Made by a program: the position numbers and the translations under genes
Part shown: one piece after another, positions 10,742 to 62,403 of the stretch
Layout of the letters: the number at the start of each line of letters is the position of its first letter
How positions within the stretch are numbered: position 1 is the stretch's first letter
The notes under the pieces: model-generated
Told to the model about the DNA's origin: nothing
The model's database searches: none
The model's input: only the letters and a program-made list of their open reading frames with translations
NCBI RefSeq assembly: GCF_016907535.1
Contig: NZ_JAFBCF010000001.1
Coordinates: forward strand, 2,728,001 to 2,792,000
Reading direction: 5' to 3'
Source: Microlunatus panaciterrae
GTDB lineage: Bacteria > Actinomycetota > Actinomycetes > Propionibacteriales > Propionibacteriaceae
Length of the DNA: 64,000 nt

Positions 10742-10808
10742 CTCGTCGCTCCTTCGACCGGCTTCCTCGACAGGCTCAGGACGCGTCAGGCCGCCGATCC
10801 ATCGAAAC

Positions 10809-10985
10809 CTCGACAGAACGCGACTTCTGCAGGTCCGAAGGCGCCGATTTGGGTGGAAAACTCGACAGAACGCGACTTCTGCAGGTCCGAAGGCGCCGAT
10901 TTGGGTGGAAAACTCGACAGAACGCGACTTCTGCAGCCTGAAAAGTGGCGGATCTCCGGCAGAACTCGACAGAACGCGACTTCTT
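10809..10985. repeat. 52-bp tandem repeat, four heads
   Basis: The 20-base head CTCGACAGAACGCGACTTCT recurs at 10809, 10861, 10913 and 10965, exactly 52 bp apart. The bodies of units 1 and 2 are identical (GCAGGTCCGAAGGCGCC...). Unit 3 has a different body of the same length, and unit 4 is truncated after the head. A related unit with the same 16-base head lies at 50057. No open frame with protein character crosses the array. Confidence 0.85.
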
Positions 10986-11615: not shown

Positions 11616-12772
11616 TGTCGCAGCAGCACCCGCAGTGGGCCCGGCCCCAGTGGCCGGAGCAGAGTCGGCGCCGACGCCGGGTCCTGCCAGCCGTTCTGAT
11701 CGCACTGTGGGCGGCCGTCGTTTTCGTCCTCTCCTTCGGCGCAGTGCTGATCTTCCAGCAGTACAACAGCACCCAGCTCGGCCAGCCTCAGGTGACGAGC
11801 CCCCCGTTGCCGCCCTCGAGCAGTCCCGCCGGACCGACCGATGAGCCGCGGGTGCCCACCCTGGCGCCGCCCCCGCCCACGTCGAGACCGACCCCCAGCC
11901 AGCCGCCGACCAGCAGTGCGACGAGCGCGGCGCCGACCGCCGCGAAGTCGACGAAACCTGCCACCACCACCAGGCCGCCCACCGCCAAGCCCAACAAACC
12001 CACCAAGCCCAGCAAGCCCGCCACCACGGCCGGCCCGGCGAAGCCACCCACGACCAAGCAGCCCACGGCGCAGCCCAGCAAGAAGCCTGCCAAGCTTCCC
12101 AAGGGCGGCGACGAGCCGACGCTGATCAACAACAAGCTCTACCGGCAGCAGCTCAAGGCCTCGGCCTGCAGCCGGCAACCGGGCCCCGTTCCGACCACGA
12201 CGAAGGCCTACCGGAAGTACATCGACCAGGTACTCACCTGCCTGCAGGCCGCGTACGCCGGACCGCTCAGCCGGGCCGGCTACAAGCTGGACAAGCCGCC
12301 GTTGATGATCTACACGTCCTCGGTGGAGACCCCGTGCGGTCAGAGTCCGCCCGGCTACGCGGTGTTCTACTGCGGGGCGAACGAGACCATCTATGCCACC
12401 AAGGACGCGCTCGACAGCTATACGACGATGCGGTTGGGTCTCTTCTACGTCCTGTTCCACGAGTACGCGCACCATGTCCAGGAGCGGACCGGGATCCTGA
12501 ACGCCTCGTACCTGCGCGAGGAGGACTCCCTCGTCGTCAGCCGCCGCACGGAGCTGCAGGCGGAGTGCCTGATGGGCATGACGCTGAGGTCGGTCGGGTC
12601 GGTCGGCTACAACGGCACCGACCAGCGGGAGATGGTGGTCTGGCGCAACGCCGTGCCCGACGACATCCACGGGACGTCCAAGTCGCAGCTGTTCTGGATC
12701 GACAGGGGACTGAAGACAACGGACTTCGGCCGCTGCAGCACCTGGCTGGCGAGCACCAAACGAGTGCGTTGA
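11615..12772 (+). CDS. Membrane-anchored neutral zinc metallopeptidase (YpfJ-like)
   Basis: 385 residues. After a basic N-terminus there is one transmembrane helix (residues about 25-48), then a 100-residue low-complexity linker rich in P, T, K and S (residues 50-155) suited to spanning the wall, then the catalytic domain. HEYAH at 282-286 is the HExxH zinc motif, and ELQAE near residue 313 supplies the downstream glutamate typical of this family (PF04228). Four cysteines in the extracytoplasmic domain may form disulfides. Substrate unknown. Translation is probably coupled to the short upstream frame. Confidence 0.82.
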   Translation: MSQQHPQWARPQWPEQSRRRRRVLPAVLIALWAAVVFVLSFGAVLIFQQYNSTQLGQPQVTSPPLPPSSSPAGPTDEPRVPTLAPPPPTSRPTPSQPPTSSATSAAPTAAKSTKPATTTRPPTAKPNKPTKPSKPATTAGPAKPPTTKQPTAQPSKKPAKLPKGGDEPTLINNKLYRQQLKASACSRQPGPVPTTTKAYRKYIDQVLTCLQAAYAGPLSRAGYKLDKPPLMIYTSSVETPCGQSPPGYAVFYCGANETIYATKDALDSYTTMRLGLFYVLFHEYAHHVQERTGILNASYLREEDSLVVSRRTELQAECLMGMTLRSVGSVGYNGTDQREMVVWRNAVPDDIHGTSKSQLFWIDRGLKTTDFGRCSTWLASTKRVR

Positions 12773-16265: not shown

Positions 16266-16420
16266 TCTTCGACAGGCTCAGAGCGCGTTCCGCGCCCTGA
16301 GCTCGTCGAAGGGCGGAAGCAGAACGCGCCCTGAGCTTGTCGAAGGGCGAAAGCAGAACGCGCCCTGAGCTTGTCGAAGGGCGAAAGCAGAACGCGCCCT
16401 GAGCTCGTCGAAGGGCGGAC
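16266..16420. repeat. 34-bp tandem palindromic repeat between rpsD and rpoA
   Basis: Two full 34-bp direct units (16321-16354 and 16355-16388, identical: AGAACGCGCCCTGAGCTTGT...) are preceded by a partial unit at 16290-16320 and followed by a near-full one at 16389-16420. An inverted copy (CTTCGACAGGCTCAGAGCGCG, 16267-16287) faces the first unit across a 3-base gap. Together they can form a hairpin with 21-bp arms and three mismatches. Each unit also contains the small dyad CGCCCT/AGGGCG. The array lies inside an essential operon. Confidence 0.85.
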
Positions 16421-18450: not shown

Positions 18451-19173
18451 GTGCTGCCGGACGATCTCGCCGGGGCCTACGCCATCCAGGACCGGGGGAT
18501 CGACCTGTGGGCCGACCGGCTGGTGGGCTGGAAGGTGGGCTACATCCCGGTCGAGAAGCGCGAACGCTCCGGCGCGGACCGGCTGCTCGGGCCCATCTGG
18601 GCAGGTCAGACCGCCGCCCAGCAGGGCAGCGAGCCGGCGCCCTTCGAGGTCTTCGGCCAAGGCTTCGCCGCAGTTGAGGCCGAGTTCGTGCTCCGGATGG
18701 AGGCCGATCAGCCGACCGATCGGGTGGACTGGACGGCTGAGCAGGCGAGAGCCCATCCGGCCACTCTGCTGCTGGGGATGGAGGTGGCGAGCAGCCCGCT
18801 GCCCGACATCAATGACCTTGGCCCGCTGGTCATCACCGCGGACTTCGGCAACAACAACGGCCTGCTGCTCGGACCGGAGATCGCGAACTGGACCGAACTC
18901 GATGAGATCGAGTTGGTGGCGGAGACGGAGATCGACGGGTCTGTCGTCGGCCGGGCCACTGCGGCGCAGATCCCCGGCGGGCTCGGTCAGGCCTTCGCGT
19001 TCGCGCTGAGCACGCTGGCCCGTAGGGGCCGGCCGCTGCTGGCTGGCCAGCTGGTGGCCACCGGCAACATCACCGGAATCCACCCGGTGCAACCCGGATC
19101 CGTCTGCCGAGTGAGCGCGCCCGGGTGGGGCGCGCTCACCGGACAGGCGGTCCAGGCTGCACCTCGGTCTTAG
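18451..19173 (+). CDS. 2-keto-4-pentenoate hydratase-like protein (FAH superfamily)
   Basis: 240 residues from the first canonical start (GTG at 18451). YAIQDRGIDLWADRLVGWKVGYI, then FAAVEAEFVLRM and MEVASSPLPDI match MhpD/hydratase-decarboxylase proteins that bind a divalent metal and act on 2-hydroxypentadienoate-type acids. Family members have about 25-40 residues before YAIQ. In this frame good protein sequence (STYEETAAILTGARKAGASLAGFPGV) extends up to an ATC at 18373 preceded by AGGACAGGG, with no ATG, GTG or TTG. The gene may use an AUC start or may have lost its start. The last four codons fall in sequence shared with the second binding-protein locus. Confidence 0.78.
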   Translation: MLPDDLAGAYAIQDRGIDLWADRLVGWKVGYIPVEKRERSGADRLLGPIWAGQTAAQQGSEPAPFEVFGQGFAAVEAEFVLRMEADQPTDRVDWTAEQARAHPATLLLGMEVASSPLPDINDLGPLVITADFGNNNGLLLGPEIANWTELDEIELVAETEIDGSVVGRATAAQIPGGLGQAFAFALSTLARRGRPLLAGQLVATGNITGIHPVQPGSVCRVSAPGWGALTGQAVQAAPRS

Positions 19174-20939
19174 GTGCCGACCTTCTTGATCTTGAAGAGC
19201 CAGGTGATGCCGGCTCCTTGCCACATGGGTGGGGCGTAGGGGTTGGCTTCGGTGGGGAAGCCGGTCCAGTTGGATTCGTTGAACTCGTAGAACTCGAGTG
19301 GGCGGTACATGAGGGGGACGACGGGGATGGTTTGGCGGTAGATGGCGTCGAGCTTTTGGTAGATGGTTTTGCGTTCGTCGTCGGTGGTGGCTGCGCCGGC
19401 GTCGTCGAGGAGCTTGGGGACGTCGGGGTGCTTGAAGCGGGTGAAGTTGTAGAAGGTGGTTTTGCCGACGGGGGCGGCGCCGCGGTCGTCGAGGAGGTCG
19501 CGGAAGCGGCTCCAGGGGCTGGCGGGGCTGACGCCGGAGGCGCTCCAGCAGGCGAGTTGGAAGTCGCCGTTCTGCATTTTGGAGGTGACGTTGGGTGCTT
19601 GGGGGAACTCGGTTTTGACGTCGATGCCGACGGCTTGGCAGGACTTGGCGACGATTTCGCAGGCGGTGTTCCAGTCGGTCCAGCCGGTGGGGGTGATCAG
19701 GGTCCAGGGGCCGAGTCGGGTGCCGTCGGGGAGTTTGTAGATGCCGTCGGAGCCCTTCTTGGCCTTGAGCTCCTTCTCCAGGATCTCAACGGCCTTGTTC
19801 TTGTCGAACGTCCAGCCGTCCTTGGCCACGGCATCCTTGTCGTAGAACGCCTCCTCGAAGCCGGTGGGCAGGATGAGGCTGGCGTTGGCCGGTTCGGAGT
19901 AGTCCGACATGGCGGTGCTGGCGATGTTGGGGGTGTCGATGGCGTAGGCGATGGCCTGGCGGACCTTGGGGTTGTCGAGGCCCTTGACGGTCTGGTTGAT
20001 CTGCAGCAGCGGGATGTTGCCCGGCAGGTAGTAGGGCTTCTCCTTCAGCCAGGTGTGGATCGGCTTCTTCTTGTCCTCCCACATCTTCCAGATCTGCGGC
20101 GTGAACTGCTGGCTCGCGTCGATATCACCGCTCTGCAGCTTGATGTCCCCGTCATTGCCCGTCTTGAAGACCGGATGCACCACGGCAGTCATCGCCGGTG
20201 TCCCGAAGATGGCCTTGCCCCAGTAGTCGTCACGCCGCTTCAGCGTGATCTGGGTCTGGTCGTACTTGTCGAGCAGGAACGGTCCGGAGCCGACGGGTTT
20301 GGTGTTGGCCTGCTTGGCGAGGGTCTTGGCGGTGGCGAACTCTTCCCAGATGTGTTTGGGGATGATGTAGGTGCCGGCGATGGCGTTCTTGACCGGGAGC
20401 GGGTTGAACGGTTTGGCCTTGACCTTGAACTCGACGGTGCGGGGGTCGGTGGCGCTGACCGATTCCAGGTATTCCCACACGTTGGAGTAGGACAGAGACG
20501 CGTCCTTGGCGATCTCGAAGGTGAAGACGACGTCGTCGGCGGTGAGGTCCTTGCCGTCGGACCATTTGGTGCCTTCTTGGAGGGCGACGGTGAAGGACTT
20601 GCCGCCGTCGTTCTCCTTCAGCTCGGTGCCGAGGCCGGGCTGGAGTGAGCCGTCGACCATGTTGAAGCGGACCAGCGTCTCATAGATCAGCTGGATGCTT
20701 CCGCCACCCGTCGGCCAGGCTGGTGAGGGGCCGACCGGGTTGAAGTTGGTCGGCGGGCCCCACTGGAACCCGGAGACGAACAGCGTCTCCCCGGCAGCAC
20801 CGGGTCGGCCCTTGGCAGCACCGTTCACGTCGTTGCCGGTCTTGGCGGTGCCGCAGCCGGCCGCGCCGAGGCCGACCGCCGCGCCACCGAGCGCGAGGCC
20901 GCTGATGCTCAGAAACCTCCGACGGCTGGTCTCCCAGCC
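19161..20939. repeat. Repeat copy A: duplicated binding-protein tract
   Basis: From 19161 this tract matches 30960 onward (offset 11799). By eye there is no difference over the first 627 bp (19161-19787). Short divergent islands then alternate with near-identical stretches up to about 20939, just inside the Tat signal region. Divergent islands encode residues about 369-394 and 240-307. Confidence 0.9.
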
Positions 20940-20969
20940 GGTGCGGGTACCGAGTTCGGTGGCCGTCAT
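19170..20969 (-). CDS. ABC transporter substrate-binding protein, family 5 (copy A)
   Basis: 599 residues. A twin-arginine signal (TSRRRFLSISG, arginines 16-18) ends in a lipobox (GAAGC, Cys39), so it is exported folded and lipid-anchored. The mature part has the family-5 (DppA/OppA-like) features TDxxxEFKVKAKPFNP, RQAIAYAIDTPNI and PVVPLMYRP. No transporter genes adjoin it; the ATG overlaps the upstream dioxygenase stop (ATGA). It is nearly identical to the binding protein at 30969-32807 and may serve the same importer. Codons in the shared tracts use CAA, GAA, AAA and CCA more than neighbouring genes do. Confidence 0.9.
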   Translation of the reverse strand: MTATELGTRTGWETSRRRFLSISGLALGGAAVGLGAAGCGTAKTGNDVNGAAKGRPGAAGETLFVSGFQWGPPTNFNPVGPSPAWPTGGGSIQLIYETLVRFNMVDGSLQPGLGTELKENDGGKSFTVALQEGTKWSDGKDLTADDVVFTFEIAKDASLSYSNVWEYLESVSATDPRTVEFKVKAKPFNPLPVKNAIAGTYIIPKHIWEEFATAKTLAKQANTKPVGSGPFLLDKYDQTQITLKRRDDYWGKAIFGTPAMTAVVHPVFKTGNDGDIKLQSGDIDASQQFTPQIWKMWEDKKKPIHTWLKEKPYYLPGNIPLLQINQTVKGLDNPKVRQAIAYAIDTPNIASTAMSDYSEPANASLILPTGFEEAFYDKDAVAKDGWTFDKNKAVEILEKELKAKKGSDGIYKLPDGTRLGPWTLITPTGWTDWNTACEIVAKSCQAVGIDVKTEFPQAPNVTSKMQNGDFQLACWSASGVSPASPWSRFRDLLDDRGAAPVGKTTFYNFTRFKHPDVPKLLDDAGAATTDDERKTIYQKLDAIYRQTIPVVPLMYRPLEFYEFNESNWTGFPTEANPYAPPMWQGAGITWLFKIKKVGT

Positions 20970-21865
20970 CGGTCGCAGCCTCCGTCCTTGTCCGGGCGGG
21001 AGTAGGGCCGGCTGATGTCGGCCAGACCCTTGTAGGCGTACGGATCCTCGCCCGCGATCATCACGATGTCGCGGTAGTCGGTGATCGCCATGTGTTCTCC
21101 CTGCTGCGGCTGCCGCCAGGGCAGCAGCGACTCTGCGCTCATGTAGTGGTTGGCGAGCGCCCGGCGGTAACCGTGCTTGCCGGAGTTCTGCAGCGAGCGG
21201 TGCAGCAGGTAGCCGTTGAAGATGACGGCGGTCCCGGCGGGGATCTCGACCGGCACCGAGTCGGCGTCGCTGTAGGGGAAGTCGTACGCCTCGGTGGTGC
21301 AGTCGAATCGCGGGTCGTCCTGCTCACGGGCCGGGTAGATCACGCCGCGGCGATGCGATCCGGGCAGCACCCAGAGGCAGCCGTTCTCGATGGTGGCGTC
21401 GTCCAGGGCGATCCAGACAGCGGTCAGCGACCGATCGCGGGTCGGGATGAAGAACTCGTCCTGATGCCAGGCCTGGCCGGGCTTGCCCTCCGACTTGATG
21501 AACAACATCGACTGCATGGCCTTGACGTTGGGCCCGATCACACCGGTCAGCGCTGCCGCGATCCGCGGGTTCTTCAACGCCCGCAGTGCCACCTCCGACA
21601 CCTTGTGCGGGTAGTGGATGCAGAGGAAACGCCGCAGCAGGTCCTCGCTGGACTCGGTCCCGCTGACCGGACGCTGGGCGTCGATCTCGCCGAGGTCGCC
21701 GCGGCAGAGCCGCTCCGCCTCGGCGTTGATCTCGGCGACCTCGGCCGGGCTGAGGGCGTTGCCCAACAGCGCGAAGCCGTTCTCGTGGTAGTAGTCCACC
21801 AGGTCGGGGCCCGCCTGGTCGAAGATGGTGAGGGGGCGTTGCTGCTGTTCGGTCGCGGTGGTCAC
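20966..21865 (-). CDS. Phytanoyl-CoA dioxygenase family protein (1)
   Basis: 299 residues from GTG at 21865, preceded by GAAAGGAAC. It is a 2-oxoglutarate/Fe(II)-dependent oxygenase: H134 and D136 (AWHQDEFF) and the distal H222 (LLHRSLQNSG) form the iron triad, and the arginines at about 234-235 are placed for 2-oxoglutarate. The substrate is unknown; bacterial members hydroxylate many small molecules, not just phytanoyl-CoA. It forms an operon with the binding-protein gene and is divergent from an AraC regulator 128 bp away. Confidence 0.88.
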   Translation of the reverse strand: MTTATEQQQRPLTIFDQAGPDLVDYYHENGFALLGNALSPAEVAEINAEAERLCRGDLGEIDAQRPVSGTESSEDLLRRFLCIHYPHKVSEVALRALKNPRIAAALTGVIGPNVKAMQSMLFIKSEGKPGQAWHQDEFFIPTRDRSLTAVWIALDDATIENGCLWVLPGSHRRGVIYPAREQDDPRFDCTTEAYDFPYSDADSVPVEIPAGTAVIFNGYLLHRSLQNSGKHGYRRALANHYMSAESLLPWRQPQQGEHMAITDYRDIVMIAGEDPYAYKGLADISRPYSRPDKDGGCDR

Positions 21866-21981
21866 CGGAGTTCCTTTCTCGTCTTGGCACAGAAGACCGC
21901 GGGCCACAGCCGTAGCGTGCCGCGCGGTGTACTCAAACTCGCAGATTCCGGTGGCGGATCCAATGCCACTACCACGCGCAT

Positions 21982-21987
21982 TACTAT
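21982..21987 (+). promoter_or_regulatory. -10 box (TACTAT) for leaderless araC-type gene 1
   Basis: TACTAT is followed by six bases and GTG at 21994. It overlaps the palindrome at 21983-21995, so a regulator bound there would block its own transcription. Confidence 0.5.
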
Positions 21988-21995
21988 CTGATAGT
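21983..21995. promoter_or_regulatory. 13-bp palindrome over araC-type start, candidate operator
   Basis: ACTATCTGATAGT is a perfect odd-centred palindrome that covers the -10 box and the start codon of the AraC-family gene. It lies in the short region between this gene and the divergent dioxygenase. Confidence 0.4.
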
Positions 21996-22902
21996 GACAT
22001 TGCCGACCCTTCAGGTGGTGACCCGGAGCCGGGTTCTGGTTGCCGACTACCGCCCCGGTTCGAGCTATGGACCGCGGCTGTTGACGGACTTCGAGCTGGT
22101 CTGGCTGTTGGAGGGCAGCGCGGTGTGGCGATCGCAGCAGCTCGATGCCGCCGGGGCCGTGCTGGCCGAGGACAGCCAGTTGCTGCGCCCCGGCATGATC
22201 GCACTGGCCCGGGCCGGCACCCGGGACTCCTACCAGTGGGATCGGGACCGGAGCTCTCGGCATGCTTATGTTCACTTCCAGGTGCTCGAGCTGGGCGCCC
22301 TGCCACCGGCAGCCGACTGGCCGACGGTCCGTCAGCTGTCGGGCATCCCCATCCTGCAGGGTCTCAGCAGCTATCTGCTGGAGTTGGCCGGCTCGGAGTC
22401 CGAGGCGGCTCGGCGGCGCAGCGACGAGATGGTGCAGCTGCTGCTGGACATCTTCGTCACCGGCCCGCTCGGACCGGGTTTCCCCCAGTTGCCGGGTCAT
22501 GTCGCGGAGGTGGTCGAGTACGTGCGCCGGGTGTGGAGCACCAGTGGGATGCGGATCGTGACGGCCGACGAGATCGCCGAGGCGGCGAACGTCTCGGTCG
22601 GGCACCTGTTCCGGCTGTTCCGGGACAGCTATGGCTGCGGTCCGGTGCGGGCGCTGGAACTGGTCCGGCTGGCGCGGGCCGCCGTCTCGCTGCAGCGCAG
22701 CAATGCCACCATCGCCGAGATCGCCGAGCGCAGTGGCTACAGCAACCCGTACCACTTCTCGCGGCGGTTCGCCCAGGTCTATGCCACGCCTCCCGGCGCC
22801 TTCCGGAAGGGCTCATCCGGAGCGGATCCGCTGGCGCCGCTCAAGGAGTCGCGGCTGCTTCCGATGGCGCATCTGTTGCTGAACACCGCTGTGGCCGGTT
22901 GA
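21994..22902 (+). CDS. AraC family transcriptional regulator (1)
   Basis: 302 residues. The N-terminal half is a cupin-like sensing domain (WLLEGSAVWRSQQ, LRPGMIALARAGT, HAYVHFQV). The C-terminal half (about 185-285) has two helix-turn-helix motifs: ITADEIAEAANVSVGHLFRLFRDSYG-like, then IAEIAERSGYSNPYHFSRRFAQVYATPPGAFR, the classical AraC signature. It is divergent from the dioxygenase/binding-protein pair and is the likely local regulator of it. GTG start with leaderless promoter geometry. Confidence 0.9.
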   Translation: MTLPTLQVVTRSRVLVADYRPGSSYGPRLLTDFELVWLLEGSAVWRSQQLDAAGAVLAEDSQLLRPGMIALARAGTRDSYQWDRDRSSRHAYVHFQVLELGALPPAADWPTVRQLSGIPILQGLSSYLLELAGSESEAARRRSDEMVQLLLDIFVTGPLGPGFPQLPGHVAEVVEYVRRVWSTSGMRIVTADEIAEAANVSVGHLFRLFRDSYGCGPVRALELVRLARAAVSLQRSNATIAEIAERSGYSNPYHFSRRFAQVYATPPGAFRKGSSGADPLAPLKESRLLPMAHLLLNTAVAG

Positions 22903-26936: not shown

Positions 26937-27710
26937 TCAGCCCGTCTGGTGCAGCTTCGGCACGTCGGCCAACAGCTTCTGCGTGTACTCGTGCTGCGGG
27001 TTGTAGATGACGTCCTCGGTGCTGCCCTGCTCGACCATCAAGCCGTTCTCCATCACGAGCACCCGGTCGGCGACGTAGTTCGCCTGGCCGATGTCGTGGG
27101 TGATGAAGAGCACGGTCATGCCGAGCTCGTCGCGCAGGTCCTTCAGCACGTTCAGCACGTTCACCCGCAGCGAGGCGTCCAGCATCGACGTCGCCTCGTC
27201 GGCGACCAGCAGCTTGGGCTGCATCATCAACGCTCGGGCGATCATGATCCGTTGCCGCTGCCCGCCGGAGAGCTGGTGCGGGAACCGGTCGAGGACGTCC
27301 TTGCCGGTGAGCCCGACGTGGCCCAGTGCCTCCTCCAGCCGCTCCTTGCCCTTCTCCCCGGTGCCGAGCAGCCGCAGCGAGCGGTAAAGCAGACGGCGTA
27401 CGGTGAAGAACTGGTTGAAGGCGCTGAACGGGTCCTGAAAGACCGCCTGCACGTCCTGCCAGTATTGCGCCGTCTGGCGGCCCCGCGCATGGGTGACGTC
27501 CTCCCCCTGGAAGGTGAGCTTTCCGGACGTGATCGGCAGCAGCCGCAGCACCATCCGAGCCAGCGTCGACTTGCCCGACCCGCTCTCACCGACGACCGTG
27601 ACCAACTCCCGCTCCTCCAGGGAGAAGGAGACGTCCTTGACCGCCTCAACCACATTCTTGCCGTGGCCGAAGGTCTTGGTGAGGTGTTCGGCCTTCAGGA
27701 TCTCGGTCAT
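26937..27710 (-). CDS. ABC importer ATPase, OppF/DppF-like
   Basis: 257 residues. Walker A GESGSGKST (about 40-48), signature LSGGQRQR, Walker B KLLVADEATS and the switch histidine in FITHD are intact. The C-terminal zone lacks the long oligopeptide-binding extension. It is the last gene of the importer operon, overlapping the preceding ATPase by four bases (ATGA). The nucleotide-binding subunit pairs with the ATPase next to it. Confidence 0.9.
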   Translation of the reverse strand: MTEILKAEHLTKTFGHGKNVVEAVKDVSFSLEERELVTVVGESGSGKSTLARMVLRLLPITSGKLTFQGEDVTHARGRQTAQYWQDVQAVFQDPFSAFNQFFTVRRLLYRSLRLLGTGEKGKERLEEALGHVGLTGKDVLDRFPHQLSGGQRQRIMIARALMMQPKLLVADEATSMLDASLRVNVLNVLKDLRDELGMTVLFITHDIGQANYVADRVLVMENGLMVEQGSTEDVIYNPQHEYTQKLLADVPKLHQTG

Positions 27711-28822
27711 GCAGACACCTCTTCGTCTCGGGTGGGTTCATCGACGTCGGGGTCGACCAGCTCGCCCTGCTGGGTCACCACCAGCAGTGGGTCGGAGGCG
27801 GCCAGATCGGCGGTAGTGACCGCCGTCAACGGCACCGACTCTCCCGGGTGCTTGGCTGTCCAGAAGCAGGACGAGAAGCGCAGGTCGTCACCGACATGCG
27901 GCGGCTCCTGGGTGAAGCACTCATCCATCGCCAGACCGCACCTCGGATGGAAACGGCAACCTGCAGGCGGGTGCTCCAGGTTCGGCGGATGGCCCTTGAT
28001 GCCCTGCACCCGGCGGTTGCGGAAGCCCGGTTCGGGCGACAGCACGGAGTTGAGCAGCGCAGCCGAGTACGGGTGCTTGGGCGCCTCGGTGAGCTCCTCC
28101 GCATCACCGACCTCGACGATCTTGCCGGCATACATCACCGCGATCCGGTTGGAGATCGTACGCAGCACCGGTAGGTCGTGGGTGACGAAGACGACCCCGG
28201 CCATGATCTTCTGGTCCAGCATCTGCAGCAGCATGTCGATCAGCGCCTTCTGCGACGAGACGTCCAGCGCCGACGTAGGCTCGTCCGCGATCAGCAGTCG
28301 CGGGTTCAACAGCGTGGAGATGACCGTCACCACCCGCTGCTTCATGCCTCCGGACAGTTGGTGCGGATAGGCATCCAGCACCCGGACCGGGAGGTCGAGG
28401 CTGGCGATCCGGTCCCGGGCCCGGTCCATCGCCTCGGACCGCTTGATGCCGCGGTCGTGGGCCCGCATGACATCGAAGACCAGGTCGCGGACCCGCATCG
28501 TCGGGCTGATCGAGTTCATCGCACCCTGGGGCAGCATTGAGACGACCGCGCCACGCCAGGTGCGGGGAATCTTGTTCTTGCCGCCGAGCTCCTGGGCCTT
28601 GCCCTCGATCTCCAGGGTGCCGCCCTCCACGAACAGCGGGGGGCGGGCGGTGAGCGACAGGATGGCTCCGAGGGTGGACTTGCCGCAGCCGGACTCTCCG
28701 GCGATGCCGAGCACCTCGCCCTCGTCGATGTAGACCGACACGTCGTCAACGGCGGTCACCTCGCGACCGTCCGGGGTGCGGTACGACGCGCGCAGGTTCT
28801 CCGCGTTCAGCAGTCTGGTCAT
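27707..28822 (-). CDS. ABC importer ATPase, OppD/DppD-like
   Basis: 371 residues. Walker A GESGCGKST, signature LSGGMKQR, Walker B LLIADEPTSALD and H-loop FVTHD are present. The C-terminal extension with GHPPNLEHPPAGCRFHPRCGLAMDEC carries the cysteine cluster of the oligo_HPY domain, which in relatives binds an iron-sulfur cluster. It overlaps both neighbours by 4 bp. Belongs to the family-5 importer operon. Confidence 0.9.
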   Translation of the reverse strand: MTRLLNAENLRASYRTPDGREVTAVDDVSVYIDEGEVLGIAGESGCGKSTLGAILSLTARPPLFVEGGTLEIEGKAQELGGKNKIPRTWRGAVVSMLPQGAMNSISPTMRVRDLVFDVMRAHDRGIKRSEAMDRARDRIASLDLPVRVLDAYPHQLSGGMKQRVVTVISTLLNPRLLIADEPTSALDVSSQKALIDMLLQMLDQKIMAGVVFVTHDLPVLRTISNRIAVMYAGKIVEVGDAEELTEAPKHPYSAALLNSVLSPEPGFRNRRVQGIKGHPPNLEHPPAGCRFHPRCGLAMDECFTQEPPHVGDDLRFSSCFWTAKHPGESVPLTAVTTADLAASDPLLVVTQQGELVDPDVDEPTRDEEVSA

Positions 28823-29799
28823 CCGTTGCCTCCTCGGGTGTGGGTGCCTGAGGAGGTCTCGACTCCCCGGCCCACTTCGACGTCACTGTCCTCGCCACTC
28901 TCGATCGGGATGGGGACCGGCGCTCCGACGGCCGGTTCGGTGACCCCGACCACCTTCTTGCGCCGGGCCGCCCGACCACGGCGCAGCCGCGGGTTGAAGA
29001 CCTCGTCCAGGCTCGACTGCAGCAGCAGCAGCGAGAACGCGATCAGGGTGAGCATCAGGGTCGGTGGCATGAAGGCCCACCAGGCCCCGGTGCGGATGGA
29101 ACCCCAGGCAAGGGCCCAGTAGAGCATCACGCCGAGGGACACCGAACCGGACGGGCCCAGGCCCAGCATGCTCAGGGCGGCCTCGGTCAAGATGGCGCCG
29201 GCCACCTGGAGGACGAAGGCCATCACCACATAGCTGAGCAGGTAGGGCAGCACGTCCCAGGCGAGGATGCTGCCCCAACGGGCGCCGGACAACCTGGCCA
29301 CATCGATGTGCTCGCGCGTTCGGACGCTGGTGGCCTGGGCACGCACCGCGCGCGCAGTCCAGGGCCAGCCGGTGACGCCGATCACCAGCGCCAGGGTGAA
29401 CGACCCGCGGCTGGGGAGCGCGATCGAGAGCAGGATGACCACCACGATCGACGGGATCGCCAGCGCGACGTTGGTCATACCCATCAGGGCGTCGTCGAGC
29501 CAGCCGCCCTGGAAGCCAGCCACCAGGCCAATGACCAGGCCGATCGTGGTGGCGATGGTGCCGGCCAGCAGACCCACGATGAGGGAGGTCCGGGTGCCGT
29601 ACACCAGGTTGGCCAGCACGCTCTGGCCCTCGTTGTCGGTGCCCAGCCATTGCTGAGCACTCGGCGCGTCATAGAGACCACCGACGACGGCGTTGGGGTC
29701 GGTGTGCACCACCAGCGGGCCGACCAGGCCCAGCAGCAGGGTGAACAGGACGAGCCCCAGCGCTACCCAGAAGCGGGGGGTGAAATTGACGGCTTTCAT
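28819..29799 (-). CDS. ABC importer permease, OppC/DppC-like
   Basis: 326 residues from ATG at 29799; a much longer open frame upstream is the shadow of the other permease. Six transmembrane helices; LGTDNEGQSVLANLVYGTRTSL and the EAA loop EHIDVARLSGARWGSILAWDVLPYL are typical of DppC. About 45 charged residues are added at the C-terminus. Overlaps its neighbours by four and one base respectively. Confidence 0.9.
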   Translation of the reverse strand: MKAVNFTPRFWVALGLVLFTLLLGLVGPLVVHTDPNAVVGGLYDAPSAQQWLGTDNEGQSVLANLVYGTRTSLIVGLLAGTIATTIGLVIGLVAGFQGGWLDDALMGMTNVALAIPSIVVVILLSIALPSRGSFTLALVIGVTGWPWTARAVRAQATSVRTREHIDVARLSGARWGSILAWDVLPYLLSYVVMAFVLQVAGAILTEAALSMLGLGPSGSVSLGVMLYWALAWGSIRTGAWWAFMPPTLMLTLIAFSLLLLQSSLDEVFNPRLRRGRAARRKKVVGVTEPAVGAPVPIPIESGEDSDVEVGRGVETSSGTHTRGGNG

Positions 29800-30809
29800 C
29801 AGCGGTCTCCGATGCTTGCGGCGCGGATGCGTGGGTCGATCAGGCCGTAGGCGATCTCGACGGCGAAGTTCGCGGCGAGAACGGCCAGGGTGATGATCAA
29901 GGTGACTGCCTGGATGACCGGGTAGTCGTTCTGGCTGATGGCGTTGAAGAGCAGCGTGCCGATACCGGGGTAGGAGAAGACCAGCTCGGTGATCAGTGCG
30001 CCGCCGACGAGGCCACCGATGGACAGCGCCAGCCCGGTGATCTGGGGAAGCATGGCGTTGCGGAAGATGTAGCGGACGATCCGGTTGTCGCTCAGACCGA
30101 GCCCGCGGCCGTAGTTCACGTAGTCCGAACCCAGCTCGTAGATGGCCATCGAGCGCATGCCGACGGCCTGACCGCCGATGAAGATCAGCACCAGGGACCA
30201 GAACGGTAGCCAGAAGTAGGAGATCGCATCGCCGAAGAAGGCCATCGAGAGCTCCGGACTGAGCCCGAAGGAGTAGGCGCCGCCGACGGGCAGCACACCG
30301 AGGATGACCCCGAACCCGAACAGCAGCAGGATGGCCAGGCAGTAGTAGGGCATCGAGGAGAGGAACAGGCTGCTCACGAAGGCGCCGCGGTCGAACCAGC
30401 CACCCTTGAAGGCGGCGATGGCGCCGATCGTGTTGCCGACCACCCAGCCGATCAGGATGGCGGGCAGCTGGATCGCGATGCTCCAGGGCAGTGCGTTGGC
30501 CACCAGTCCGTTCACCGAGGCCGGATACTGACCGAACGAGGTGCCCAGGTTGCCCTGGAAGAGCTGGCCCATGTAGATGAAGAACTGCTGCCACAGCGGC
30601 TTGTCAAGGCCGAACTCGCGCATGTAGTTCTCGTAGATCGCCTTCATCTGCTCACCGCTGCTGCCGCCGCCGCGGGAGAGCTGGCTGACCAGGCTGTCCA
30701 CCGGGTTGCCGGGGATGAGTCTCGGCAGGAAGAAGTTGAGCATCAGGGCGACAAACAGGGCACCGATGTACCACAGCGCCTTCCGTCCCAGATACCGCGT
30801 GAAGTTCAT
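29799..30809 (-). CDS. ABC importer permease, OppB/DppB-like
   Basis: 336 residues, six transmembrane helices. FLPRLIPGNPVDSLV near the N-terminus and the EAA loop SDYVNYGRGLGLSDNRIVRYIFRNAMLPQI are diagnostic. Its stop overlaps the start of the DppC-like gene (TGATG). 159 bp separate it from the binding-protein gene upstream, and a hairpin lies in that gap. Confidence 0.9.
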   Translation of the reverse strand: MNFTRYLGRKALWYIGALFVALMLNFFLPRLIPGNPVDSLVSQLSRGGGSSGEQMKAIYENYMREFGLDKPLWQQFFIYMGQLFQGNLGTSFGQYPASVNGLVANALPWSIAIQLPAILIGWVVGNTIGAIAAFKGGWFDRGAFVSSLFLSSMPYYCLAILLLFGFGVILGVLPVGGAYSFGLSPELSMAFFGDAISYFWLPFWSLVLIFIGGQAVGMRSMAIYELGSDYVNYGRGLGLSDNRIVRYIFRNAMLPQITGLALSIGGLVGGALITELVFSYPGIGTLLFNAISQNDYPVIQAVTLIITLAVLAANFAVEIAYGLIDPRIRAASIGDR

Positions 30810-30898
30810 TGCAGACCCCAGTCCGTGTCGTTAGTCAAGGTGTATCAGGTCGTGATCGGGTTGTCTTGCAGAACGTGACGATCCGCTTGCGACGGCCG

Positions 30899-30931
30899 GG
30901 GAGCGACAAGCCGCGATGGCTTGTCGCTCCC
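30899..30931 (-). other. 14-bp hairpin between binding-protein and permease genes
   Basis: GGGAGCGACAAGCC and GGCTTGTCGCTCCC form a perfect 14-bp stem with a 5-base loop. There is no T-run on the minus strand. Such intercistronic hairpins commonly protect the binding-protein mRNA or lower read-through so the binding protein is made in excess; this is inference from position. The hairpin is not part of the sequence shared with copy A. Confidence 0.65.
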
Positions 30932-30959
30932 TAGTCGCCGTCAACAGGACCATCGGCGA

Positions 30960-32738
30960 ACCTCGGTCTTAGGTGCCGACCTTCTTGATCTTGAAGAGCC
31001 AGGTGATGCCGGCTCCTTGCCACATGGGTGGGGCGTAGGGGTTGGCTTCGGTGGGGAAGCCGGTCCAGTTGGATTCGTTGAACTCGTAGAACTCGAGTGG
31101 GCGGTACATGAGGGGGACGACGGGGATGGTTTGGCGGTAGATGGCGTCGAGCTTTTGGTAGATGGTTTTGCGTTCGTCGTCGGTGGTGGCTGCGCCGGCG
31201 TCGTCGAGGAGCTTGGGGACGTCGGGGTGCTTGAAGCGGGTGAAGTTGTAGAAGGTGGTTTTGCCGACGGGGGCGGCGCCGCGGTCGTCGAGGAGGTCGC
31301 GGAAGCGGCTCCAGGGGCTGGCGGGGCTGACGCCGGAGGCGCTCCAGCAGGCGAGTTGGAAGTCGCCGTTCTGCATTTTGGAGGTGACGTTGGGTGCTTG
31401 GGGGAACTCGGTTTTGACGTCGATGCCGACGGCTTGGCAGGACTTGGCGACGATTTCGCAGGCGGTGTTCCAGTCGGTCCAGCCGGTGGGGGTGATCAGG
31501 GTCCAGGGGCCGAGTCGGGTGCCGTCGGGGAGTTTGTAGATGCCGTCGGAGCCCTTCTTGGCCTTGAGCTCCTTCTCCAGGATCTCGACGGCCTTGTTCT
31601 TGTCGAACGTCCAGCCCTTGTCCTTCACGCCGGCCTCGTCATAGAACTTGGACTCGTACCCGGTGGGCAGGATGAGGCTGGCGTTGGCCGGTTCGGAGTA
31701 GTCCGACATGGCGGTGCTGGCGATGTTGGGGGTGTCGATGGCGTAGGCGATGGCCTGGCGGACCTTGGGGTTGTCGAGGCCCTTGACGGTCTGGTTGATC
31801 TGCAGCAGTGGGATGTTGCCCGGCAGGTAGTAGGGCTTCTCCTTCAGCCAGGTGCCAACCGGCTTCTTCTTGTCCTCCCACATCTTCCAGATCTGAGCGG
31901 TGAACTGCTGGCTTGCGTCGATCTCGCCGCTCTCCAGCTTGAGGTCGCCGTCGCTGTTGCTCTTGAAGATGGGGTGGACGACCGACTTCATGGCGGGAGT
32001 GCCGAACACACTCTTGCCCCAGTAGTTGTCGTCGCGCTTGAGCACCACCTGGGTCTGGTCGTACTTGTCGAGCAGGAACGGTCCGGAGCCGACGGGTTTG
32101 GTGTTGGCCTGCTTGGCGAGGGTCTTGGCGGTGGCGAACTCTTCCCAGATGTGTTTGGGGATGATGTAGGTGCCGGCGATGGCGTTCTTGACCGGGAGCG
32201 GGTTGAACGGTTTGGTCTTGACCTTGAACTCGACGGTGCGGGGGTCGGTGGCGCTGACCGTCTCCAGGTATTCCCACACGTTGGAGTAGGACAGGGAGGC
32301 GTCCTTGGCGATCTCGAAGGTGAAGACGACGTCGTCGGCGGTGAGGTCCTTGCCGTCGGACCATTTGGTGCCTTCTTGGAGGGCGACGGTGAAGGACTTG
32401 CCGCCGTCGTTCTCCTTCAGCTCCGTGCCGAGGCCGGGCTGGAGTGAGCCGTCGACCATGTTGAAGCGGACCAGCGTCTCATAGATCAGCTGGCTCTGGC
32501 CTCCGCCGGCGGGCCAGGCCGGTGAGGGGCCGACCGGGTTGAAGTTGGTCGGCGGGCCCCACTGGAACCCGGCGACGAACAGCGTCTCCCCGGCAGCACC
32601 GGCTCGTCCCTGGGCCTGTCCGCCCTTGTTGTCGTTGCCGGTCTTGGCGGTGCCGCAGCCGGCCGCGCCGAGGCCGATCGCCGCGCCACCGAGCGCGAGG
32701 CCGCTGATGCTCAGAAACCTCCGACGGCTGGTTTCCCA
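30960..32738. repeat. Repeat copy B: duplicated binding-protein tract
   Basis: Counterpart of 19161-20939 in the same orientation. The first 627 bp are identical by eye to copy A and later stretches are nearly so. The match starts 9 bp downstream of the binding-protein stop and ends at the Tat signal codons, and the flanking sequences on both sides differ. Confidence 0.9.
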
Positions 32739-32807
32739 GCTGCTGCCCCAGGTACGTGCCGCTGAGTCTTCGGGTGAAGCGAGATCGTGGTCCGACATGT
32801 CATTCAT
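30969..32807 (-). CDS. ABC transporter substrate-binding protein, family 5 (copy B)
   Basis: 612 residues from ATG at 32807, which follows AAGGAGGAACAG; an in-frame extension to 32882 lies before this site and is unlikely. Twin-arginine motif TSRRRFLSISG (R28-R30), lipobox Cys51. First gene of the importer operon (binding protein, DppB, DppC, DppD, DppF), so this copy is the dedicated partner. From the linker after the lipobox to the C-terminus it differs from copy A at the linker, residues about 250-320 and residues about 380-405, and is otherwise practically the same. Substrate unknown; peptides or oligosaccharides are both known for this family. Confidence 0.92.
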   Translation of the reverse strand: MNDMSDHDLASPEDSAARTWGSSWETSRRRFLSISGLALGGAAIGLGAAGCGTAKTGNDNKGGQAQGRAGAAGETLFVAGFQWGPPTNFNPVGPSPAWPAGGGQSQLIYETLVRFNMVDGSLQPGLGTELKENDGGKSFTVALQEGTKWSDGKDLTADDVVFTFEIAKDASLSYSNVWEYLETVSATDPRTVEFKVKTKPFNPLPVKNAIAGTYIIPKHIWEEFATAKTLAKQANTKPVGSGPFLLDKYDQTQVVLKRDDNYWGKSVFGTPAMKSVVHPIFKSNSDGDLKLESGEIDASQQFTAQIWKMWEDKKKPVGTWLKEKPYYLPGNIPLLQINQTVKGLDNPKVRQAIAYAIDTPNIASTAMSDYSEPANASLILPTGYESKFYDEAGVKDKGWTFDKNKAVEILEKELKAKKGSDGIYKLPDGTRLGPWTLITPTGWTDWNTACEIVAKSCQAVGIDVKTEFPQAPNVTSKMQNGDFQLACWSASGVSPASPWSRFRDLLDDRGAAPVGKTTFYNFTRFKHPDVPKLLDDAGAATTDDERKTIYQKLDAIYRQTIPVVPLMYRPLEFYEFNESNWTGFPTEANPYAPPMWQGAGITWLFKIKKVGT

Positions 32808-35086: not shown

Positions 35087-35325
35087 GCCTGTCGAACGCG
35101 CCCTGAGCCTGTCGAACGCGCCCTGAGCTTGTCGAACGCGCCCTGAGCTTGTCGAAGGGCGAAACCACGAACGCGCCCCGAGCTTGTCGAAGGGCTTCAT
35201 AGCTCTTCGACAAGCTCAGAGCGCGTAGTTCAACTCAGAGCGCGTAGTTCAACTCAGAGCGCGTGGTGCTCTTCGACAGGCTCAGAGCACGTAGCAGGCT
35301 CAGAGCACGTAGCGGGTGGCAACCC
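35081..35325. repeat. Tandem and inverted palindromic repeats between ligB and sodA
   Basis: Three 20-bp units of CCCTGAGCCTGTCGAACGCG (C to T in one position in later copies) run from 35081 to 35140, followed by longer units. At about 35206 the orientation flips to CTTCGACAAGCTCAGAGCGC and related units with about 20-bp period until 35320. The flip creates a large inverted structure between two convergent genes that could stop transcription from both sides. Same family as 16266-16420. Confidence 0.85.
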
Positions 35326-45894: not shown

Positions 45895-46049
45895 GTCGAC
45901 GTATCGCGGCCCCGGGATGGGAGGGGTGGCGGCTCAGCAGCGCGTCGGGGATTCAGGGATCCAGCGGCGCGTGGGGGATCCAGCGGGTCCAGAGGGGTGC
46001 ACCGGGCGTGCCTCCACCAGGGTTCGGCCGCCGTGCGCGTACAAAGCAC

Positions 46050-46120
46050 GGGAAACTGTCACTCGGCTCGGCAAATTTGCCGAGCCGAGTGACAGTTTCC
46101 CAAGTCGACTTGGGAAACTG
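46050..46120. repeat. Overlapping perfect palindromes (52 bp and 28 bp)
   Basis: 46050-46101 is a perfect 52-bp palindrome: a 26-base arm starting GGGAAACTGTCACTCGGCTC is followed directly by its reverse complement with AAATTT at the centre. 46093-46120 is a second perfect 28-bp palindrome centred on GTCGAC, sharing the CAGTTTCCC arm. So the element GGGAAACTG occurs three times in alternating orientation. It lies between the convergent CDF and citrate synthase genes and could terminate both. Confidence 0.9.
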
Positions 46121-46144
46121 ACAGAGCGGCCCCGGAGAAAGAGG

Positions 46145-47416
<1,272 letters not shown>

Positions 47417-60216: not shown

Positions 60217-62403
60217 ATGCCAACCAACTCCGGTGCGCCTGCGCGCGCCTCGAGCAAGTCCAAGAAGAGCGGGCCGGGAGCCCCGAAGAAGGCTCGCAAG
60301 GTCCCCAAGAGCTTCAAGGTCGACGGTACGCCTAAGAAGCGGTGGTCGTCTGCCGAGCGGGCCGATCGTGGCCTCGGCCCTCGCAAGAGCGGCGGTCAGC
60401 CCAACCGGGCGCAGCGGCGTCGTGAGCAGTTCGGCGCCCCGGTGACCTCCGCCGGTGCCGAGCGTCCCCGCTTCGACCGAGAGAGTGACGACCGGCCCGC
60501 CCGGGACAAGACCCCGCGCGGCGACAACCGTTCGCGATCCGACGAGCGTCCCCGCTTCGACCGCAAAACCGACGAGCGCCCGCGGTTCGATCGGAACACC
60601 GACGAGCGTCCGCGCTTCGATCGGAACACTGACGAGCGTCCGCGCTTCGATCGGAACACTGACGAGCGTCCCCGGTTCGACCGCAAAACTGACGAGCGTC
60701 CGCGGTTCGACCGCAAAACTGACGAGCGTCCGCGGTTCGACCGCAACACCGACGAGCGTCCCCGGTTCGAGCGCAGCGGTGACGACCGCCCTCGCTATGA
60801 CCGCACCAAGCCCGAACTGTCCCGCCAGACCCGTAGCGAGCGACCGCGCCATGAGGCCGGGTCCGACCGCTGGCGGAGCACCCGGGACAGCCGTACCGGT
60901 GACAACCGCCCGGCTGACAACCGCTCCGGCGGCTGGCGCGACGACCGCGGTTCCCGGGACAACAGGTCCGCCGGTTTCAGCCGGGGAACCGATCGGCCCG
61001 CCAGGTCCGACTCCGGTGAGTCCAATGCCGACACGATGAGCTGGACCGCACGCGAACTGGCTCCGGTCGACACCGGCGCCGTGACCGCCGAGCACGGCTT
61101 CGCCCGGCTGGGCCTGCCCAAGCCGTTGGTGGCTGCCCTCATCTCGGAAGGGATCACCGACCCGTTCCCCATCCAGGCTGCCACCATCCCCGACGCCTTG
61201 GCCGGCCGTGACGTGCTGGGCCGCGGTCAGACCGGATCCGGCAAGACGCTCGGCTTCGCGCTGCCGATGCTGACCACCCTTGGCGGCCCGGCCAAGGGCA
61301 ACCGTGCTCCGCGCGGCCTGGTCCTGGTGCCGACCCGCGAGCTTGCAATGCAGGTGGCCGACGTGATCGCGCCGCTGGCCAAGACGATGGACATGTCCGT
61401 CACGCTGATCGCCGGCGGGATGGCCTACGGACCGCAGATCCGCGCCTTCGAGCGTGGCGTCGACGTCGTCGTGGCCACTCCTGGGCGGCTGATCGACCTG
61501 ATGGAGCAGGGTGCGCTCGACCTGTCCCGGGTGGAGGTTGCGGTGCTGGACGAGGCCGACCATATGGCCGATCTGGGCTTCATGCCTGCGGTCACCACGA
61601 TCATGGACCAGATGCCGGCCGGTGGTCAGCGACTGCTGTTCTCCGCGACCCTCGACCGGGCCGTCGACCGGCTGGTCAAGAAGTACCTCGACAACCCGGT
61701 GACCCACGAGGTCGACTCGGGCCAGGCGACGGTGTCGACGATGGTGCACCATGTCGTCCACATCCTGCCGCACGACAAGAACGCCCTGACGGCGGAGATC
61801 GCCGGTCGACCAGGCCGGACCGTCATCTTCGTCCGCACCCAGCGCGGCGCCGACCGGGTGGCCGAGCAGTTGCGGGCGGCAGGCGTGACAGCCGGGGCGC
61901 TGCACGGGGGTCTGACCCAGGGAGCCCGGACCCGCATCCTGGCGGCGTTCAAGGACGGCACCGTGCCGGTACTGGTGGCCACCGATGTCGCGGCCCGCGG
62001 TATCCATGTCGACGACGTGGGCCTGGTCCTCCAGGTCGATCCGCCGGCGGGCCCGAAGGAGTATCTCCACCGCGCCGGCCGGACGGCTCGGGCCGGCGGC
62101 ACCGGTGTCGTGGTCACCCTGGCTCTGCCGCACCAGCGCAAGGAGCTGCAGCGGTTGACCTCCCAGGCCGGTGTCGCCTCGGCGCCGCTCGAGGCGCGCC
62201 CGGGTGACGAGGCGCTGGCCCGCGCGACCGGCTCCCGCCAGCCGAGTGGCGCCGCCGTCAGCCAGGCGGACTTCGAGAAGCTGATCGCTCCACCGGCACG
62301 CGGCGGTGGCCGGCCGAAGAACCGCAAGGACTTCGGCCGTCGTGACGCCGGCGGTTACCGTGGCGGCAACCGCCGTGGAACCGGTGGGCGGTCGCGAGGA
62401 TAG
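60217..62403 (+). CDS. DEAD-box RNA helicase with N-terminal decapeptide repeats
   Basis: 728 residues. Residues 1-100 are basic and disordered. Residues 109-188 consist of eight tandem decapeptides DERPRFDRxT (x is K or N), and residues up to about 270 continue in a similar RDN/RSG-rich style. The helicase core (about 285-640) has Q motif, GQTGSGKT, PTRELAMQ, LDEADHMADLGF, SAT, and HRAGRTARAG. A basic Gly/Arg tail ends the chain. ATP-dependent RNA unwinding, probably ribosome assembly or mRNA turnover. GGAGAAGTGAG precedes the ATG. Confidence 0.92.
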   Translation: MPTNSGAPARASSKSKKSGPGAPKKARKVPKSFKVDGTPKKRWSSAERADRGLGPRKSGGQPNRAQRRREQFGAPVTSAGAERPRFDRESDDRPARDKTPRGDNRSRSDERPRFDRKTDERPRFDRNTDERPRFDRNTDERPRFDRNTDERPRFDRKTDERPRFDRKTDERPRFDRNTDERPRFERSGDDRPRYDRTKPELSRQTRSERPRHEAGSDRWRSTRDSRTGDNRPADNRSGGWRDDRGSRDNRSAGFSRGTDRPARSDSGESNADTMSWTARELAPVDTGAVTAEHGFARLGLPKPLVAALISEGITDPFPIQAATIPDALAGRDVLGRGQTGSGKTLGFALPMLTTLGGPAKGNRAPRGLVLVPTRELAMQVADVIAPLAKTMDMSVTLIAGGMAYGPQIRAFERGVDVVVATPGRLIDLMEQGALDLSRVEVAVLDEADHMADLGFMPAVTTIMDQMPAGGQRLLFSATLDRAVDRLVKKYLDNPVTHEVDSGQATVSTMVHHVVHILPHDKNALTAEIAGRPGRTVIFVRTQRGADRVAEQLRAAGVTAGALHGGLTQGARTRILAAFKDGTVPVLVATDVAARGIHVDDVGLVLQVDPPAGPKEYLHRAGRTARAGGTGVVVTLALPHQRKELQRLTSQAGVASAPLEARPGDEALARATGSRQPSGAAVSQADFEKLIAPPARGGGRPKNRKDFGRRDAGGYRGGNRRGTGGRSRG
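60541..60780 (+). repeat. Eight 30-bp in-frame tandem repeats in helicase gene
   Basis: Eight 30-bp units, each beginning GACGAGCG, encode DERPRFDRKT, DERPRFDRNT or (last) DERPRFERSG. Differences are mostly silent or K/N changes. A degenerate ninth unit follows at 60781-60810. Tandem DNA like this can change copy number by slippage or recombination without a frameshift. Confidence 0.95.

Follow-up and report, generated by a model that had tools for sequence, protein, structure and literature searches.

Gene organization around the two binding-protein copies

The window analyzed in this study is a stretch of 64,000 nucleotides from the genome of Microlunatus panaciterrae, the assembly of which consists of one 4.07 Mb contig with 99.78% completeness. 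Two genes for family-5 solute-binding lipoproteins, termed copies A and B, were found together with a PhyH-type dioxygenase ORF and the components of a transporter, as listed below.

19170..20969, minus strand: copy A, orphan family-5 solute-binding lipoprotein gene, 599 aa (PF00496, 3.9e-65)
20966..22306, minus strand: PhyH-type dioxygenase ORF, upstream of A (PF05721, 3.1e-40)
26937..27710, minus strand: transporter ATPase 2 of the operon of B
27707..28822, minus strand: transporter ATPase 1 of the operon of B
28819..29829, minus strand: permease 2 of the operon of B, start approximate
29799..30809, minus strand: permease 1 of the operon of B
30969..32807, minus strand: copy B, family-5 solute-binding lipoprotein gene, first of the transporter operon (PF00496, 2.3e-66)

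The PF00496 scores of both proteins (220.8 bits for A and 224.8 bits for B) exceeded the curated Pfam cut-off of 32.4 bits, and a lipoprotein-type signal was recognized in each by eye. The ORF of copy B extends to 32882, and its start at 32807 was assigned from an AGGAGG-like site. The start codon of copy A overlaps the stop codon of the PhyH gene, the real start of which probably lies further inside the ORF, with the PF05721 domain occupying residues 173-383. An FAA-hydrolase-like gene and the rpsD-rpoA-rplQ block are located downstream of copy A. Copy B is followed by two permease and then two ATPase genes in an Opp-type operon, which also supplied the closest permease found to copy A, about 8 kb off. 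Besides A and B, the best-scoring binding protein in the host genome was only 32% identical. A close copy was also present in 14 other genomes of the genus; 12 of them kept the B-type operon order, and 10 of these 12 had a divergent DNA ligase gene upstream of the operon.

Between B and permease 1, a GC-rich hairpin-like inverted sequence was noticed at 30799-30969, possibly a partial terminator as judged from the unfolded sequence. In addition, short intergenic repeat units around GCCCTGAGCTTGTCGAAGGGC, located at 16291-16417 and 35094-35195, flank the A-B region on both outer sides, adjoining rpsD/rpoA on one side and the DNA ligase gene on the other.

Clustered divergence between copies A and B

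The full homologous stretch (19161-20944 versus 30960-32746) was 94.3% identical. In the codon alignment of 588 codons, 69 differed in clusters and one was gapped, this one-codon indel shifting the A/B offset from 11799 to 11802 towards the 5' end. The resulting segments, with the residue numbers of copy A, were as follows.

19161..19787, minus strand: tract T3 in A, residues 395-599 and bases past the stop, identical to B
30960..31586, minus strand: tract T3 in B, identical to A
19788..19862, minus strand: island I2 in A, residues 370-394, 12 of 25 codons differing
19863..20054, minus strand: tract T2 in A, residues 306-369, one codon differing
20055..20249, minus strand: main island I1 in A, residues 241-305, 32 of 65 codons differing, A-type
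31854..32048, minus strand: main island I1 in B, operon type
20250..20693, minus strand: tract T1 in A, residues 93-240, six codons differing
20694..20723, minus strand: small island in A, residues 83-92, 8 of 10 codons differing
20802..20828, minus strand: small island in A, residues 48-56, seven codons differing, with the indel close by
20829..20939, minus strand: near-identical signal-peptide block in A, residues 11-47, two codons differing

Residues 57-82 of A were near identical to B, with a single codon change (S66 in A, A66 in B). The initial annotation had described a 627-bp identity at an offset of 11799, synonymous sites included, and this was borne out: 19161-19787 and 30960-31586 are the same in their final 205 codons and in the few bases that follow the stop codon, none of the 105 fourfold sites being different. 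This run of 205 codons is the longest identical one in the pair, the longest runs after shuffling (n = 20,000) having a mean of 38 and a maximum of 109. The two islands originally proposed were positioned correctly within a few residues; the small islands at 48-56 and 83-92, the block at 11-47 and the one-codon indel had been overlooked.

Silent divergence calculated per segment by the Nei-Gojobori method varied along the pair from 0 to 0.94. The dS values were 0 for residues 395-599, 0.046 for 309-370, 0.041 for 96-239 and 0.28 for 61-95; residues 371-394 gave a dS of 0.40 with a dN of 0.31, and residues 240-308 a dS of 0.94 with a dN of 0.17, 13 of their 18 fourfold sites being different. 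The contrast in fourfold sites between T3 (0/105) and I1 (13/18) indicated that the tracts are young and the islands old. Uniform divergence of A and B was excluded by the segment dS values together with the 205-codon run, as was a recent duplication followed by rapid amino-acid change, since the silent sites of I1 are old as well. The gene-conversion mosaic originally postulated for the pair was thus upheld, both by this uneven silent divergence and by the disagreement, described below, of the island tree with that of the remaining gene.

Island phylogeny and predicted ligand pocket

In a survey of 198 family genomes (E <= 1e-120, up to six candidates per genome scored; all were scored in the genus search), the binding protein was present in 35, and more than one copy occurred in three of these, namely the host, G002 and G007. 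In G002 and G007, a PhyH-binding-protein pair is located apart from the operon (L058, L061), and no relatives of the permeases of the window were found in the 16 kb around these pairs. The PhyH link rests on the A-type proteins of these three genomes, those with a known gene context, and not on P0012, P0016, P0023, P0058, P0099, P0100, P0105, P0134 and P0142. In G016 (L056, 381-2134), a PhyH gene with 80% identity lies beside rplQ and copy A is absent, no remnant of it being detected in the PhyH/rplQ gap by tblastn at E <= 1e-8. In G001 (L067, 4969-8769), a close binding-protein gene faces away from the permease genes, and its product falls together with the third copy of each of G002 and G007.

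The protein matches used were the best 120 of 632 in one search and the best 120 of 250 in another, and the trees with and without the main island were built from 57 of 140 aligned rows. The main island of A reads KTGNDGDIKLQSG...FTP, the PhyH-linked genes of G002 and G007 being identical but for one residue, and that of B, KSNSDGDLKLESG...FTA, is near operon genes. When the island was left out of the 57-protein tree, A and B were sisters with full support (100/100), and ten A-type proteins fell in six places, a single clade of them being rejected (AU p 1.1e-6). The tree of the island only (65 columns) joined A to five A-type proteins (98/94) and B to the operon types; four A-type rows were placed elsewhere, and a single clade was neither upheld nor rejected (AU p 0.17). 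As the island of A groups with the PhyH-linked copies and A and B are sisters elsewhere, the islands appear to retain an old paralogue identity, and the tracts a young conversion. The idea of the initial annotation that the islands are native relics is accordingly supported for the main island of A and is consistent with the data for B. Among the matches listed in the 140 aligned rows, the best identity over residues 395-599 besides the other copy was 80%, and the best identity to residues 240-308 of A was likewise 80%.

The tracts rejected a clade with G016 (AU 1.8e-4), and the islands of B did so weakly (0.044). For the tracts of B, a clade with G002/G007 was rejected (AU 6.2e-5), whereas the islands of B preferred G002/G007 (89/92), p being 0.051 for the islands with G008/G019. 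The permease/ATPase tree left the window unplaced (56/42), so that a conflict with the species tree is not demonstrable.

Residues of the main island recurred as a haplotype in the pocket core.

20094..20180, minus strand: pocket core in A, residues 264-292, with T270, G271, I276, Q279 and P291

Counts were made over 167 near rows among the matches listed, from which the duplicates P0001, P0027 and P0121 had been dropped. As the core motif served to select the A-type rows, there is some circularity in the counts for positions 270-291: G271, I276 and P291 occurred together in 12 of the 167 proteins and were never split among G271 rows, I276 was found in none and P291 in five of the remaining 155, and T270 was present in 11 of the 12 haplotype proteins versus 2 of the 155 others. 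S66, which is distant in sequence, was carried by 10 of the 12 versus 10 of the 155. The 12 haplotype proteins occupied six places in the rest-of-gene tree, corresponding to six state changes, either gains or losses. In ten A-type/B-type pairs of similar background, which were chosen by hand and have members in common, residues 271, 276 and 291 differed in all ten. The geometry of A and B was mimicked by P0016 and P0028, which are 97% identical over 293-599, 81% over 60-263 and 76% over 264-292.

Column 271, Gly in A and Asn in B, was Asn in 154 of the 167 near proteins listed and in 29 of 29 distant proteins. The remaining non-Asn271 protein, that of G017, carries Asp and is encoded beside rplQ, the position of A. 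All four non-Asn271 genes of known place were at PhyH or rplQ (the G017 contig ends before the PhyH position), and all 13 operon-borne copies had Asn271.

The solved structures closest to A were tmCBP (about 9.5e-91 by sequence), TM1223 and TM1226, followed by the Vibrio chitooligosaccharide binders, all of them oligosaccharide binders. A fold model of A agreed with this ranking (TM-score of 0.80 against 2o7i). Its mean pLDDT was 71.6, with values below 50 at model residues 271-287 (residues 282-298 of A); because of this low confidence, the pocket mapping rests on sequence alignments. VhCBP, the chain index of which equals the published number plus two as fixed by Trp363 and Asp365, was mapped onto A via L003 and a spacing of 18 residues, which is equal in VhCBP, tmCBP, L003, A and B. 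VhCBP has the same fold, and its contact residues Asn204 and Ser221/Phe222, as named in its report (PMC8449061), align with column 271 and with 288/289, respectively. The same report describes Asn204 as completely conserved in a five-protein alignment and as forming a hydrogen bond with the site-1 sugar; mutating it had a moderate effect (PMC8449061). This sugar-contacting Asn of the oligosaccharide-binding branch is kept in B, but not in A, which has Gly also where tmCBP has Asn215. On the other hand, Trp380, Trp383 and Trp426 of tmCBP are Trp in both A and B. As far as alignments allow, A may work like the tmCBP/VhCBP-like branch, though without the conserved Asn feature.

Residues 91/92 align with tmCBP Thr32/Asp33 beside a four-residue gap, a mapping less sure than that of 271, and residue 66 directly precedes the residue aligned with tmCBP Gly12. 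According to the tmCBP report, Asp33 contacts sugar ring 4 and Gly12 is another contact (PMC3850815). The island at 371-394 had no mapped pocket role and was variable across the whole family. The suggestion that the islands may determine the ligand is therefore supported by this mapping for residues 66, 91-92 and 270-291, but not for 371-394. The ligands are inferred to be sugars and would differ between A and B, and the PhyH enzyme may act on the ligand of A.

Codon style and origin of the mosaic

The shared tracts had been said to favor CAA, GAA, AAA, CCA and GTC/CTC. This proved correct for CAA/GAA/AAA and for CTC/GTC but not for CCA (two in the shared tracts, one in the islands of A), the proline codons being shifted towards CCC instead. 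G-ending codons made up 15% in T3, 40% in the islands of B and 49% in the islands of A; in 66 other rows, among which some genes appear twice, their share was never below 24%. As a baseline for the codon-style score, 212 ORFs of a 400-kb genome sample were cut into 65-codon chunks; T1 and T2 scored at the 99.9th percentile of these chunks, and T3 scored higher than any of them. The islands of A were ordinary (-0.55 and -0.27; mean, -0.34), and those of B were high but below the tracts (-0.10 and -0.08; 96-97th percentile). With a score trained on T3, T1 and T2 exceeded I1 and I2 by 0.61 in A (p < 1e-4) and by 0.23 in B (permutation p 0.005).

The codon style of the shared tracts was unlike that of relatives, too. 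In 18 pooled relatives, however, A-ending Gln/Glu/Lys codons numbered 7 of 455 in I1, T2 and I2 versus 52 of 988 in T1 and T3, and this weaker contrast indicated that the codon contrast is in part a property of the gene itself. Translational selection behind the tract codons was not favored: the genes of EF-Tu and two GroEL proteins, though GTC-preferring, lack most of the style, as do those of S4, RpoA and L17. The notion of B as a uniform donor was weakened, its own islands being less tract-like than its tracts (p 0.005). The simplest direction of copying, as favored by the codon style, would be from B to A.

We consider it probable, albeit by a modest degree of confidence, that B converted A and that selection preserves the pocket of A, the two being old paralogues with differing pockets and probably one transporter. 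Selection is invoked because the kept differences fall on pocket positions and the same residues recur on six backbones, which is unexpected by chance. A single transporter with two binding proteins is probable because A has no adjacent permease and its body has been kept equal to B. In the proposed course of events, A and B would be old paralogues differing in the ligand pocket, both probably feeding the permease/ATPase complex encoded after B, and homologous recombination would copy B into A; recombination between copies 12 kb apart could copy long tracts. The newest event would comprise at least the final 205 codons and a few bases of the 3' flank, T1 and T2 with their few silent differences being perhaps slightly older than T3. 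Converted stretches would persist where A and B share their job, that is, in the fold and probably in permease docking, and conversions erasing the pocket of A would presumably be purged by selection, leaving the islands. These could stem from repeated events or from one tract with patchy repair. As a tentative and rather doubtful extension, the non-contiguous pocket haplotype S66/T270/G271/I276/P291 might be held in the orphan across Propionibacteriaceae while the rest is repeatedly replaced by the transporter-bound paralogue of each lineage, such that a shared permease is retained, conversion matches docking and selection separates the pockets. In that case, the specificity residues would be directly marked by the islands.

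Conversion of A by B has to be weighed against the overwriting of both genes, directly or B first and then A, by a third, foreign binding-protein gene of odd codon style that left native islands. The extreme scores of the tracts within the 400-kb sample (99.9th percentile for T1/T2, above all chunks for T3) and the 15% of G-ending codons in T3 against at least 24% in the 66 other rows are in line with such an import, as are the less tract-like islands of B (p 0.005) and the opposing behavior of its tracts and islands towards G002/G007 (AU 6.2e-5 versus 89/92). Since the tracts of B are odder than its islands and the preferred relatives differ, an earlier import into B is possible. Nevertheless, B-to-A conversion accounts for copy A without a third gene, the 140 aligned rows contained no donor among the matches listed (best identity of 80% over 395-599), the islands of B at the 96-97th percentile are not plainly ordinary, relatives carry a weaker form of the Gln/Glu/Lys contrast (52/988 versus 7/455), and the permease/ATPase tree gives no placement of the window (56/42); foreign overwriting of both genes is thus judged unlikely.

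One core on six backbones is likewise expected from a moving cassette, in which case A would be a recent copy of B, or the reverse, and the A-type core and islands would have been imported from an A-type gene of another species. This seems improbable, however, because one copy would have to take up several separate imports (48-56, 83-92, 241-305 and 370-394), new copies would have to arrive behind PhyH more than once and in different lineages, and none of the listed proteins comes close to the island of A (best identity of 80% over 240-308). Finally, an assembly artefact that partly duplicated one locus onto the other can yield long exact identity at a constant offset. The single contig (99.78% complete), the differing flanks of the two loci and the interleaved islands with their old phylogenetic signal make this, including the collapse of two loci that the initial annotation had raised, highly improbable.

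If conversion of A by B with a selected pocket is true, conversion-protected islands between paralogous transport proteins would offer a cheap route to specificity residues and a means of predicting the orphan binding proteins with a permease in common, and the differences between A and B would form a natural map of what distinguishes the two copies. It would also call for caution, as a whole-gene tree presents A as a fresh copy of B, yet its pocket comes from an older family. The T. maritima mannoside binders TM1223 and TM1226 (PDB 4pft, 4pfu) similarly represent two related binders of the same fold in one organism. The A/B pair, or recurrent protection of a pocket in bacterial binding proteins, was not found described among the matches listed from the CC-licensed full-text literature. 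A conversion mosaic is not known for TM1223/TM1226.

Gene conversion in eukaryotic gene families has long been established. In bacteria, the nearest precedent is the conversion between RF1 and RF2 (PMC4530459), which occurred in two independent lineages. There, too, old paralogues underwent conversion in the part serving the shared job (domain 3), the specificity part staying apart; unlike in A and B, a single region was converted, and the authors deemed it neutral (PMC4530459). The A/B conversion spans most of the gene with several islands left, its last tract is free of silent differences, and the residues that escaped it reappear in six placements. Conversion between bacterial paralogues being already known from RF1/RF2, the new part would be recurrent conversion around a ligand pocket.

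Several other features were observed in the window. The ORF at 45917-47260 contains a perfect 52-bp palindrome (46050-46101) and has a GC3 of 0.62, a value much lower than in the 27 other genes of the window that were scored. Direct repeats of about 78 bp each, 104 bp apart and 81% identical, lie at 10804-10984, and a tandem array with a 30-bp unit of coding size was found at 60511-60840, where nine overlapping 90-nt copies were reported.
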